Below are positions 44,666 to 48,264 of a stretch of 49,007 bases of DNA, piece by piece. The stretch covers positions 806,757-855,763 of the forward strand of contig NZ_CYTO01000024.1 in NCBI RefSeq assembly GCF_001458335.1. Reading direction: 5' to 3'. The notes beneath the pieces were generated by a model. The model did no database searches. It was not told where the DNA came from and saw only the letters and a program-made list of their open reading frames with translations. Numbering within the stretch: position 1 is the stretch's first letter; each line of letters opens with the position of its first letter. The translations under genes and the position numbers were made by a program. The DNA comes from Cognatishimia activa. GTDB lineage: Bacteria > Pseudomonadota > Alphaproteobacteria > Rhodobacterales > Rhodobacteraceae.

Positions 44666-45028
44666 ATGTCTCAGGAACAAACCCCGGCGGAAGGCACGCC
44701 TTTGATCCCTCCATCAAGCATTGAACATCCATTGTTTGATCAATCGATTGAGGCTCTGCGCAGCGTCTATGACCCGGAAATTCCGGTGAATATCTATGAC
44801 CTTGGGCTGATTTACCACGTCGGTATCAATGACGAAAATGAGGTTAATGTCCTGATGACTCTCACCGCTCCGGGCTGCCCGGTTGCTGGCGAAATGCCGG
44901 GATGGGTCCAGGAAGCCATTTCTGGTGTTCCAGGCATCAAGACCGTTGATGTCGAGCTTGTTTGGGAACCTCCATGGGGCATGGAAAACATGAGCGACGA
45001 GGCCCGCCTCGAACTGGGCTTCATGTAA
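44666..45028 (+). CDS. Fe-S cluster assembly protein, SufT/MIP18-like (DUF59)
   Basis: A 120-residue DUF59 protein. The conserved SVYDPEIPVNIYDLGLIY block begins near residue 34, and LTAPGCPVAGEMPGWV contains the family Cys; it ends in VWEPPWGMENMSDEARLELG, typical of the SufT/YitW subgroup. These help mature Fe-S proteins. The N-terminal 25 residues are polar and variable. In many relatives such a gene lies next to an A-type carrier; here the carrier (47914-48264) is nearly 3 kb away, with GDPD, SatD and DUF3307 genes in between. Confidence 0.85.
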   Translation: MSQEQTPAEGTPLIPPSSIEHPLFDQSIEALRSVYDPEIPVNIYDLGLIYHVGINDENEVNVLMTLTAPGCPVAGEMPGWVQEAISGVPGIKTVDVELVWEPPWGMENMSDEARLELGFM

Positions 45029-45062
45029 CCGTCATTTCATCGCAATCCATTTGCAACAAATT

Positions 45063-45091
45063 TGTCAAATCCCTGTCGCAGGGATTTGACA
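45063..45091. promoter_or_regulatory. 13-bp perfect palindrome upstream of the GDPD gene
   Basis: TGTCAAATCCCTG and CAGGGATTTGACA are exact inverse complements around TCG, ending 34 nt before the GDPD start codon. It lacks a T run, so an operator is as likely as a terminator. On the plus strand TTGTCAA-ATCC-CTGTCGC has the 7-4-7 layout of a Pho box, though with several mismatches. Confidence 0.5.
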
Positions 45092-45125
45092 GTCTCCGAC
45101 CATCTTAACTTGACGGAGACACATC

Positions 45126-46343
45126 ATGTTTCGCATGACCACCAAAGCAGCCATCAGCGCTGCTCTTTTTGTGCCTGCAATGGCCACCGCCGCAGAGGTA
45201 GAACTCGGCCCGCGCCCTTACTACCTGATTGACCAAATGGCTGATGGTGAGCTGAAAAGCAAACTGCAAGCCTGCGAGAATATGGCGTTCAAACAGCACC
45301 CATTCTCTATCGGTCACCGTGGCGCGCCAATGATGTTTCCTGAACACACCGTTGAATCCAACGTTGCTGCCGCGCGTATGGGCGCAGGCATTCTGGAATG
45401 CGACGTGACCTTCACCAAAGACAAACAACTGGTTTGCCGTCACGCCCAAAACGACCTGCACACCACAACAAACATTCTGGCCTCTGAGTTGGCAGGCACC
45501 TGCGTTAAAGGTTTCTCTCCTGCCAAAGACGGCGAAAAAGCCGTTGCGGAATGCCGTACGTCTGAAATCACGCTGTCTGAGTTCAAAACGCTGAACGCAA
45601 AAATGGACGCGGCGAATTCAAAAGCGACCACCGTCGAAGAATATCTGGACGGCACAGCAGGCTGGCGCACCGATCTGTATGCCACCAACGGCACTGTGAT
45701 GACCCACGCAGAGTCCATCGCTCTGTTCAAAGATCTGGGCGCGAAGTTCACTCCAGAACTTAAATCTCCTTCCGTGGAAATGCCATTTGATGGCTACACA
45801 CAGGAAGATTACGCTCAAGCGCTGATCGACGAATACAAAGCAGCGGGTATCCCAGCTTCTGACGTGTTCGCGCAGTCCTTCAATCTGGATGACGTTCTTT
45901 ACTGGATCAAAGCCGAGCCAGAATTCGGCAAACAAGCGGTCTTCTTGGACGACAGCTACAATGAGGAAGGTTTTGACCACAACGACCCATCCACCTTCCG
46001 TCGTCCAATGGCAGAGCTGAAAGCGCAAGGCGTGAACTACATCGCCCCGCCAATGTGGATGCTCGTCACCACTGAGAACGGCAAAATCGTTCCGTCTGCT
46101 TACACCAAAGAAGCGAAAGCGGCTGGCCTGAAACTGATCACATGGACACTGGAACGTTCCGGCCCATTGGCAAATGGCGGCGGCTGGTACTTCCAGTCTG
46201 TGAAAGACGTCACCAACAACGACGCAATGTATTTCGAGCTGTTGGACGTTCTGGCGCAAGACGTTGGTGTTGAAGGTGTCTTCTCTGACTGGCCAGCAAC
46301 CACTACTTACTATGCGAACTGCATGATGGGCCAAGGCTCTTAA
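45126..46343 (+). CDS. glycerophosphodiester phosphodiesterase, periplasmic
   Basis: A 405-residue secreted enzyme that hydrolyses glycerophosphodiesters to glycerol-3-phosphate and alcohol. The signal peptide is [20 protein letters not shown], cleaved near ATA-AE. The GDPD signature is clear: [17 protein letters not shown] with the two catalytic His around residues 63-75, [17 protein letters not shown] with the metal Glu/Asp, then FTPELKSP and a late [14 protein letters not shown] lies 7 nt before ATG 45126. It would let the cell use phospholipid head groups as a phosphate or glycerol source, which fits a phosphate-responsive element upstream if that element is real. Confidence 0.92.
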
Positions 46344-46371
46344 GTTAAGCGCATTTGGTTACGAATTTGGC

Positions 46372-46398
46372 ACGGCCCTGAAATTTCGGGGCCGTTTC
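46372..46398 (+). terminator. terminator of the GDPD gene
   Basis: ACGGCCC (46372-46378) and GGGCCGT (46389-46395) flank a loop that can extend the stem through GAAA/TTTC, followed by TTTC, about 28 nt after the stop. The short T run makes it moderate. Confidence 0.6.
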
Positions 46399-46410
46399 GC
46401 TGTTCAACAC

Positions 46411-46488
46411 GCAACCTAATTTGGTTGCACCTAACGTATAGCAACTAAAAAAGGTTGCAAAATAGGAATAGCAACCTAAATTGGTTGC
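46411..46488 (+). promoter_or_regulatory. three 18-bp inverted-repeat operators at 30-bp spacing before satD
   Basis: Three sites of the form GCAAC(C)-N6-(G)GTTGC occur at 46411-46428, 46441-46458 and 46471-46488; the outer two are perfect and the middle one has one changed base in its left arm. They start exactly 30 nt apart and the last ends 3 nt before the SatD start codon. A weak promoter, TTGCAA (46455-46460), 16-nt spacer, TAAATT (46477-46482), would start transcription at or next to the ATG and is covered by sites 2 and 3. No Shine-Dalgarno sequence is visible, so the mRNA may be leaderless. The HTH-bearing SatD protein is the natural candidate to bind. Confidence 0.75.
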
Positions 46489-46491
46489 GTT

Positions 46492-47139
46492 ATGAGCGAA
46501 GACACACAGCAAATAGCCGTTTTGACCGGCGACATCGTTGGATCAACCCAACAGAGCAGCGAAGATCTTGCCGATATCTTCCAAGATCTGCACGAATGCG
46601 CCCTTGTGATTGAAACACTGTGCGGTGGGCCAATACACCTAACGCGTCACCGGGGTGATGGCTGGCAAATCGCACTGCCTCAAAAACGCTTTGCAATTCG
46701 ATCCGCGCTTCTTATTCGAGCCAAACTCAAATCAAGAGAAGCCGGTCTTGATAGCTATATCGGTATCGCGTTTGGCGAGACCAATACCGAACTTCAGTCA
46801 GACCTTAATCTAGAAACGAGCGAAACATTTCAGCGTTCAGGCTGGGCGTTAGAAGACGTTAAATCAAGCAAGTGGGCAACGCGCATGATTACACAAGAGT
46901 CCCCTTCACACGATGCGATCTTAGCACTTCTGGATCATATGATACGCAGCTGGACACAGACCCAATCAGCCGAAATATATGAAAAGTTTACGCTTATCCC
47001 GACCAAATCTGACACGGACATTGCAAAGGCGCTGGGCAAATCACGTCAAGCGGTCTCAAAGTCATTGAAATCAACAGGTGCAGATCGGATCGAACTCGCA
47101 CTTGGGGCATTGGAATTCAACGAAAGTCAGCGCCGATGA
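46492..47139 (+). CDS. SatD family protein: cyclase-like domain plus helix-turn-helix
   Basis: A 215-residue SatD-type protein. Residues 8-96 follow the pattern of the class III nucleotide cyclase core: AVLTGDIVGST with Asp14, a GGP turn, RHRGDGWQI with Asp56 (the two metal positions), and YIGIAFGE. The region that reads the base in true cyclases is replaced by a FQRSGWALEDV block. Near the C-terminus (about 170-192) a clear HTH, DIAKALGKSRQAVSKSLKS, is present. So it may be a nucleotide-binding, DNA-binding regulator. Its stop overlaps the DUF3307 start by 4 nt (ATGA). Base composition seems more AT-rich than neighbours. No biochemical function of the family is known to me. Confidence 0.8.
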   Translation: MSEDTQQIAVLTGDIVGSTQQSSEDLADIFQDLHECALVIETLCGGPIHLTRHRGDGWQIALPQKRFAIRSALLIRAKLKSREAGLDSYIGIAFGETNTELQSDLNLETSETFQRSGWALEDVKSSKWATRMITQESPSHDAILALLDHMIRSWTQTQSAEIYEKFTLIPTKSDTDIAKALGKSRQAVSKSLKSTGADRIELALGALEFNESQRR

Positions 47140-47891
47140 TTGAAACCCTGATCGCCCTATTCGCGGCGCATGTCCTTGCAGATTACGTGTTTCAATCGAG
47201 CAAAGTTGCTGCCAACAAGCATCGCATTGGGTATCTCGCGATACACGGGTTTATTGTCTTTGGTGCAGCCGCTCTTCTGACCGGGTCGTTTACAACACCC
47301 ATCTACGTCCTCACCGCCCTGCACATCACAACTGACTTCTTCAAGGCAAGTTACGAACGCAACGCCCTTAATCGGAACAAACCAAAGATCAACGCCCATG
47401 TTGCGGACCAGTTGATCCACATTGGAACTCTGACAGCCGTAGCCTATTTCGCGCCGACCCTATGGGGCACCGGATTGTGGGCGCAATCCCCAGACTGGTT
47501 GCCCCACCTCCTATTGCTTCTCGCAGGCGCGATCTACGCCACACGCGCGGGCGGCTTCGCCGTCGGGATATTGATGCACAGCTATGGGTCAGAGTTTTCC
47601 AAAGATAGCCTTCCCGGTGGCGGTCAGATGATTGGATTTCTCGAGCGCGGGTTAATCTACATCCTTATCCTTGCTGGTCTGCCGATCGGTATTGGCTTTC
47701 TTGTGGCCGCCAAATCCGTGTTAAGGTTTGAGACCGCAAAAGAGGGCGACGCCCATGAAAACCGGCGCAGATCAGAATATGTTATCATCGGCACCCTTGC
47801 CTCATTCGGGTGGGCTATTTTGGTCAGCCTCGCCATTTTGTTTCTTTTTGCACAGCTGCCAGACCTTGGCATCCCTATGCCTTCGCCCTAA
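47136..47891 (+). CDS. DUF3307 domain-containing membrane protein
   Basis: A 251-residue integral membrane protein. The DUF3307 domain is the N-terminal 120 residues, starting LIALFAAHVLADYVFQSSKVAANKH, the signature of the family, and including LHITTDFFKASYERN with several acidic and His residues within membrane segments. About seven hydrophobic segments can be counted (near 3-18, 30-50, 56-70, 92-110, 122-140, 175-198, 224-245). A short cytoplasmic loop with RFETAKEGDAHENRRRS lies before the last helix. It is translationally coupled to SatD. The function is unknown. The SufA-like gene begins 22 nt after it without a visible terminator. Confidence 0.8.
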   Translation: MIETLIALFAAHVLADYVFQSSKVAANKHRIGYLAIHGFIVFGAAALLTGSFTTPIYVLTALHITTDFFKASYERNALNRNKPKINAHVADQLIHIGTLTAVAYFAPTLWGTGLWAQSPDWLPHLLLLLAGAIYATRAGGFAVGILMHSYGSEFSKDSLPGGGQMIGFLERGLIYILILAGLPIGIGFLVAAKSVLRFETAKEGDAHENRRRSEYVIIGTLASFGWAILVSLAILFLFAQLPDLGIPMPSP

Positions 47892-47913
47892 ATAGGATCC
47901 AAAGGAGCAACAC

Positions 47914-48264
47914 ATGTTCGGTATTCCCGGCAAACAAGCGGTCACTTTGACCCCCGCTGCGGTAAAGCAGATTGTACGACTGATGGAGCGTAAGGGCCAT
48001 CAGGGGCTACGCCTTGGGGTGAAGAAAGGCGGCTGCGCGGGTATGGAATACACCATGGAATATGTGGATAACGTGAACCCAATGGACGAAGTCATCGAAC
48101 AAGATGGCGCGCGGGTTATGATCGCTCCGATGGCGCAGATGTTTCTGTTTGGCACAGAGATCGATTACGAGACCTCGCTGCTGGAATCGAGCTTTAAGTT
48201 CAACAACCCAAATGTCACCGAGGCTTGTGGTTGCGGCGAAAGTATCAAATTCGCCGAAAGCTAA
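47914..48264 (+). CDS. HesB/IscA family Fe-S carrier, SufA-like
   Basis: A 116-residue A-type carrier. It has VTLTPAAVKQIVRLM at the N-terminus and the three ligand cysteines: one in KKGGCAGMEY near residue 41 and two in EACGCGES at the end. AAAGGAG precedes the ATG. It differs clearly from the ErpA-like protein at 23537-23860 and is closer to SufA. It lies downstream of DUF3307 with a 22-nt gap, so readthrough from the satD promoter could affect it. Confidence 0.88.
   Translation: MFGIPGKQAVTLTPAAVKQIVRLMERKGHQGLRLGVKKGGCAGMEYTMEYVDNVNPMDEVIEQDGARVMIAPMAQMFLFGTEIDYETSLLESSFKFNNPNVTEACGCGESIKFAES

Follow-up and report, generated by a model that had tools for sequence, protein, structure and literature searches.

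The satD-like gene described here lies in a 49,007-nucleotide stretch of the Cognatishimia activa genome (the window) and is followed by a gene for a DUF3307 membrane-like protein, whose start overlaps the satD-like stop codon. In the region 44666-48264 of the window, DUF59-like and IscA-like genes flank this pair, and in this genome the pair is preceded by a GDPD gene. Upstream of the satD-like start codon is a tandem array of palindromes that are candidate operators. The features, in window coordinates, are as follows.

46411..46428, no strand: candidate operator site 1, GCAACCTAATTTGGTTGC, a perfect palindrome; the array is conserved among relatives
46441..46458, no strand: candidate operator site 2, GCAACTAAAAAAGGTTGC, with one arm mismatch
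46455..46460, + strand: candidate -35 TTGCAA, read by eye, overlapping the right arm of site 2
46471..46488, no strand: candidate operator site 3, GCAACCTAAATTGGTTGC, 3 nt short of the ATG
46477..46482, + strand: candidate -10 TAAATT, read by eye, the core of site 3
46492..47139, + strand: satD-like gene, 215 aa, with a cyclase-fold domain and an HTH (ORF, profile match, structure model)
46504..46890, + strand: nucleotidyl-cyclase-like domain, about residues 5-133, with invariant D14 and D56 (Ma1120 profile, Foldseek)
47044..47076, + strand: predicted recognition helix, residues 185-195 (structure model); residues 185, 186, 187 and 190 covary with bases 1, 2, 4 and 5
47136..47891, + strand: DUF3307 membrane-like protein, 251 aa (Pfam PF11750, 47.4 bits, cut-off 23)

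The array consists, as a preliminary description of this DNA had reported, of three 18-bp inverted repeats beginning at 46411, 46441 and 46471, with start-to-start spacings of 30 and 30 bp. The further claim that the last palindrome ends 3 nt ahead of the ATG also holds, the ATG being at 46492. Sites 1 and 3 are exact copies of GCAACC-N6-GGTTGC, and site 2, GCAACT-N6-GGTTGC, has one mismatch. When up to 3 mismatches are allowed, 39 single sites are counted in the window; shuffled sequence gives 33.3 on average (sd 5.0), so there is no enrichment. The tandem 48-base pattern, also with up to 3 mismatches allowed, has this array as its sole match in the 3.36 Mb genome, and the controls gave 0. 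This unique match and the shuffle counts in relatives (below) rule out a chance origin of the array. A second tandem match that would point to a wider regulon is absent from the 3.36 Mb genome; such a regulon could use weaker or differently spaced sites. Elsewhere in the genome one perfect single site was found, at C9:322860, within a 362-aa ORF.

A separate inverted repeat, ACGGCCCTGAAA/TTTCGGGGCCGT, is located at 46372-46395, directly 3' of the GDPD gene, and is possibly the terminator of that gene. If so, it would protect the satD promoter from transcription entering from upstream.

The satD-like protein and its DUF3307 partner

The structure model of the 215-aa protein (pLDDT 91.3, pTM 0.90) contains, by comparison with known proteins, a cyclase-like fold. 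The Ma1120 profile matches positions 5-98 (E 4.8e-4), and a Foldseek search of the PDB returned 54 matches at E ≤0.001; among the 50 listed, all are nucleotidyl cyclases or GGDEF proteins. The best E is 5.9e-5, with TM 0.45, and TM values by query length range from 0.34 to 0.47 because the HTH is outside the covered part. The model and the Foldseek matches together indicate the palm fold of a class III nucleotidyl cyclase. D14 and D56 are present in 145/145 loci and align to Asp residues of Ma1120, which we take to be the metal-binding pair of class III nucleotidyl cyclases. These enzymes also use a transition-state Asn and Arg. In the satD-like proteins a conserved Asn is not visible by eye, and Arg118 is present in 75/145 loci, with a Trp in the window protein; the Ma1120 alignment ends before this region. 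Since the catalytic Asn and Arg are not visibly conserved, a nucleotide sensor seems as likely as an enzyme. With the cyclase fold and both metal-site Asp residues kept, the protein resembles a compact transcription factor built on a cyclase fold.

Proteins sharing the fold and the metal-site Asp include class III cyclases (Ma1120, light-regulated adenylyl cyclases and a bacterial cyclic UMP synthase) and GGDEF proteins. The window protein differs from class III cyclases in its fused C-terminal HTH and in the Asn/Arg pair that is not visibly conserved. Mycobacterial cyclases with HTH domains exist and are larger. A short cyclase-fold regulator with an HTH and an array of this kind does not appear among the matches listed by the literature searches, and no HTH terms were found in PMC2447327.

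The name SatD, under which the protein first appeared, is not given by Pfam, and the protein is a distant relative only. The window protein has no match to SatD (PF16264) at E 1 and does not reach the cut-off of 29 bits, and 4/46 relatives match weakly, with a best E of 1.2e-4. A relative on a Vibrio plasmid (L179) scores 24.5 bits against PF16264, under the 29-bit cut-off; since the best E of the 46 relatives is worse than that of L179, they are presumably also below 29 bits. A search of the class with the SatD Pfam model gave 0/142 genomes, and 14 controls were also without signal, so this search says nothing on absence. The SatD family takes its name from the S. mutans sat operon, and the likeness to it is a weak sequence likeness of some relatives. 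The sat operon contains ffh, and DUF3307 is found here instead. In NCBIfam, the satD-like protein has a ParB-like match below the cut-off, and the DUF3307 protein has none. One report describes a satD gene of Streptococcus pyogenes as essential yet accessory (PMC11323703).

The partner protein belongs to DUF3307 at the Pfam score listed above. Its gene is downstream of the satD-like gene in 143/145 loci, and the pair stands between a DUF59 gene (before) and an IscA-like gene (after) in at least 104/145, with some loci ending early. The model of the DUF3307 protein is all-helical (pLDDT 84.5) and has no meaningful fold match in the PDB (best E 1.4). The polar residues H12, D16, Q20, H37, H63, D67, K70, D91, Q92 and H95 are invariant in 12/12 sequences, and H, D, Q and K residues placed in this way over the helices hint at a polar or metal site within the membrane. 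A tblastn search of phage records with this protein found nothing at E 0.001. A DUF3307 ORF is listed for a Ralstonia jumbo phage in a published account (PMC8504454), so the null result with phage records is no proof of absence. On a Sphingomonas insulae plasmid (L178, 1483-3612) the neighbours of the pair include a gene of the Pycsar effector family (PADLOC 2TM effector, E 8.2e-74) and one for an "E2 domain-associated cysteine-rich protein". This region is a possible defence island.

Palindrome arrays among relatives

The satD-like gene was found in 28/149 family genomes by a single-protein search and in 90/394 by a profile search, where 6 of the 90 are weak partial matches only. It is present in 8/9 genomes of the genus, in 61/244 of an order sample (all 61 within the family of the window) and in 21/398 of a phylum sample, where 13 of the 21 genomes do not belong to the family. 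The window's own genome is included in these counts. Among 92 family profile matches listed, 8 weak ones (E > 1e-6) and 3 strong ones (G281 and G351, both partial, and G337) were not taken. The order sample gave 21 new matches without a locus, of which 20 were fetched and G523 was left out; G406 came via the phylum sample. With identical genes fetched twice counted once, there are 145 distinct loci, 132 from the family and 13 from outside. Five plasmid records were found and four were read, none of which enters any locus count.

Arrays were sought with a finder that ignores protein sequence and requires a pair of 18-bp palindromes whose arms are alike and whose starts are 28-30 bp apart. The threshold was a score of at least 18 of 20, and the controls were ten dinucleotide shuffles and coding stretches. 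Comparison of the loci establishes the array as a family feature: it lies upstream of satD in 107/145 loci, compared with 0-1/145 in each of the ten shuffles and 1/145 in coding stretches. Upstream arrays occur both inside the family (99/132) and outside it (8/13). In 34/145 loci, against 0-1 in the controls, an array lies between satD and DUF3307, and in 18/145 loci this is the sole array. This location depends on the distance between the two genes: the array is found there in 33/48 loci with a gap of at least 35 nt and in 1/95 where the genes are closer. The preliminary description had named orthologs without palindromes as the case that would speak against its proposal. Such orthologs occur in part, since 20/145 loci have an array at threshold in neither place, some with weaker ones by eye, beside the 107/145 with an upstream array.

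A scan of steps from 19 to 45 bp has its peak at 28, 29 and 30 bp (23, 74 and 25 loci), with no more than 6 loci at other steps, and a 31-bp step is seen once among 202 upstream steps. The step is 30 bp in 43/58 cases with Lys190 proteins, 29 bp in 132/174 other cases in the family, and 28 bp in 8/12 outside it. The number of sites per upstream array is 2, 3, 4, 5 and 6 in 39, 47, 17, 2 and 2 loci, so that 21/107 arrays have 4-6 sites. The earlier statement that the repeats are nearly on one DNA face proved loose, as 30 bp, with 10.5 bp to a turn, amounts to 2.86 turns. Because the family step of 28-30 bp is less than the 31.5 bp of three turns, neighbouring sites are not strictly on one face. 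Arrays extend past the promoter, and the step therefore more likely mirrors a contact between adjacent dimers.

Plasmid loci of Segatella, Sphingomonas, Vibrio and Pseudoalteromonas carry similar arrays, scored without a shuffle control. On the Segatella copri plasmid (L177, Bacteroidota), tandem TCAA-type palindromes with a 28-bp step are located upstream of position 1432, before a satD-like/DUF3307 pair.

Predicted recognition helix and half-site code

The half-sites vary by lineage and include GCAAC, GCACC, GCAGC, GCAAG, GAAAG, GCAGG, TCAAG, ACAGC, ACAAC and GTAAT, among others. The covariation analysis covers the 125 loci whose arrays score at least 18 of 20. Across the 215 residues, excess mutual information over the shuffle mean is highest at residues 185, 186, 187 and 190 for bases 1, 2, 4 and 5, respectively, with all three weightings used. 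Base 3 is almost always A, and mutual information gives no clear partner for base 6. When ranked by z-score, W58 is slightly above residue 186 for base 2 at 2/3 weightings.

The comparison shows the following pairings. At residue 185, Arg goes with G at base 1 in 87/89 loci, Gln with A in 14/14, and Pro, Ala or Thr with T in 17/17; Lys goes with A in 4 loci and with T in 1. Gln at residue 186 accompanies C at base 2 (116/118), and Val accompanies T (3/3). For residue 187 and base 4 the pairs are Ala-A (80/84), Ser-G (13/16) and Val-C (3/3). At base 5, Lys190 is paired with C in 27/27 loci and Gly with C in 5/5, and most other residues go mostly with G. Arg-G and Gln-A are classical protein-DNA contacts. 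The exceptions at base 1 are L144 and L084, the latter probably a register error of the array finder, and the plasmid loci L177 and L178, which have Arg but T. Judged by eye, the Vibrio and Pseudoalteromonas plasmid loci fit the code, and those of Sphingomonas and Segatella depart from it at base 1. The Gln-A rule was set down from three loci beforehand and was true in 13/13 loci fetched afterwards. The expectation that Lys185 goes with T failed, with A in 4/4 later loci.

On a tree of the N-terminal domain, the residue class at 185 and base 1 change 13 times each. When traits were simulated along the tree, an association as high as the observed one arose in 0/1000 draws for every one of the four pairs; for 190 and base 5 the association is barely above the simulations (0.873 vs a maximum of 0.851). 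An independent-pairs test on supported branches, underpowered at 1 to 5 pairs per trait, gave no significant sign test. In these few pairs, base 5 is the same in 3.1/5 pairs on average for K190, and for A187 and base 4 some pairs run in the opposite direction.

Since the bases of the half-sites follow the residues of the helix, the satD-like protein very probably binds its own candidate operators. The covariation of palindromes with the HTH that the preliminary description had suggested looking for is present, in the arrays at 107/145 loci and in four helix-base pairs, and its view that the sites are read by the protein's own HTH appears well supported by covariation. The case for self-binding is made from sequence, and a regulator of the whole region is conceivable given the DUF59 and IscA-like flanks in at least 104/145 loci. 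That another, unlinked regulator of satD-DUF3307 binds the sites is nonetheless very improbable. Individual bases of the half-site covary with individual residues in the recognition helix of the satD-like protein, and four plasmid records from other bacteria, including one from Bacteroidota, have similar arrays (scored without a shuffle control) beside their satD-like genes.

Promoter position and proposed regulation

The preliminary description had placed a weak -35/-10 pair over sites 2 and 3. Such a pair, TTGCAA and TAAATT at a spacing of 16 bp, can be read by eye, but it is below the threshold of a promoter scan of 46340-46540, which gave 0 promoter-like sites. Among relatives, the last site ends -1 to 5 nt before the start codon in 74/107 upstream arrays. 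In those 74 loci, T, A and T are found at -12, -11 and -10 in 49, 48 and 44, respectively, and the core of the last site is more -10-like than the earlier cores (p 8e-8). Shine-Dalgarno-like motifs are present in 12/74 abutting arrays vs 21/31 with the array at least 12 nt off. The family pattern is consistent with a transcript that has little or no leader and whose -10 box lies within the last operator. The leaderless transcript proposed earlier for the window is thus suggested by the family TAT at -12 to -10, though not by the window's own promoter scan.

These positions also bear on whether the palindromes act in RNA, as hairpins in a satD leader that would be a translational operator or attenuator, rather than as DNA sites. 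The RNA fold of 46405-46500 is strong (z -5.8), and a last palindrome abutting the start codon would suit a leader hairpin. The -10-like TAT in many loci leaves little or no leader, however, and arm mismatches are of the A-C type more often than G-T (109 and 60, with 160 others), the opposite of what selection for a sense-strand hairpin would give. Base identity tracks the recognition helix, which also argues against an RNA hairpin, and Rfam has no match up to E 1 in 46300-46600. With no Rfam match, no excess of G-U over A-C and the helix covariation, a structured RNA leader was set aside and is very improbable.

The best explanation as a whole, to which we assign a probability of roughly 87% from sequence comparison, is that the satD-like protein uses the palindromes as its own operators, in negative autoregulation of satD-DUF3307. 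Each 18-bp site would be read by one dimer through the C-terminal HTH, with residue 185 contacting base 1, residue 186 base 2, residue 187 base 4 and residue 190 base 5 of each half-site. Neighbouring dimers would be aligned along the DNA every 28-30 bp. The last site covers the likely -10 and reaches the start codon. RNA polymerase should therefore be blocked by bound protein, which would keep expression of satD, and of the DUF3307 membrane gene transcribed with it, low. A nucleotide at the cyclase-like domain may alter DNA binding. The last site at the start codon (74/107) and the arrays of 4-6 sites (21/107) fit repression and cooperativity, which are plausible on this basis.

The protein might instead bind the array and activate, for example with a nucleotide in the cyclase-like domain. 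Upstream sites could serve as activator sites, and a window in which no promoter is recognised would suit an activated promoter. Activation is unlikely, given that the last site abuts the start codon over the likely -10 in 74/107 arrays. A site in this position is typical of repressors.

Tandem-operator autoregulation and factor-site covariation are already known kinds of phenomena. By its tandem palindromes and helix covariation, the satD-like protein would belong with autoregulatory tandem-operator factors. NanR binds a repeat operator as three dimers (PMC8012715). It resembles the present case in having several dimers (predicted here) on adjacent repeats at a promoter; it differs in that here 2-6 palindromes at a 28-30 bp step abut the start codon, and it belongs to another protein family. 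Factor-site covariation has been published for MerR (PMC5045206), GntR (PMC4494728), LacI (PMC4052901) and IclR (PMC8222616). The evidence there is of the same kind as here, a correlation between operator bases and residues in the DNA-binding domain. Unlike those families, the present one has a cyclase-like domain. In a literature search that lay outside most subscription journals and all bioRxiv preprints, no description was found of a SatD operator, a SatD cyclase-like domain or a DUF3307 function.

Pycsar defence consists of a cyclase and a membrane effector. The satD-DUF3307 pair resembles it in placing a cyclase-fold protein beside a membrane-like protein, and one of the fold matches is a bacterial cyclic UMP synthase. 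It differs in that a DNA-binding domain is present here, and neither the satD-like nor the DUF3307 protein matches a PADLOC model at E 0.1, so that the pair is not recognised as a Pycsar system. A tentative and rather doubtful reading is that SatD-like proteins are undescribed one-component regulators whose cyclase fold senses a nucleotide (binds it, or makes and holds it) and so sets the grip of the dimer array on their own promoter. The DUF3307 membrane protein would thereby be released as the effector of a stress or anti-phage module gated by a nucleotide.

A family of which little beyond a name was known gains a concrete predicted role, that of a self-regulating DNA-binding protein. Its recognition code is readable at four positions, and the cyclase-like domain, with both metal-site Asp residues, is the candidate sensor. 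The uncharacterised DUF3307 protein is tied to this regulator, being its partner in 143/145 loci and having an array of its own in 33/48 where the two genes are apart. With this code, it should be possible to predict operators from the sequence of the protein and to switch binding specificity with single substitutions.
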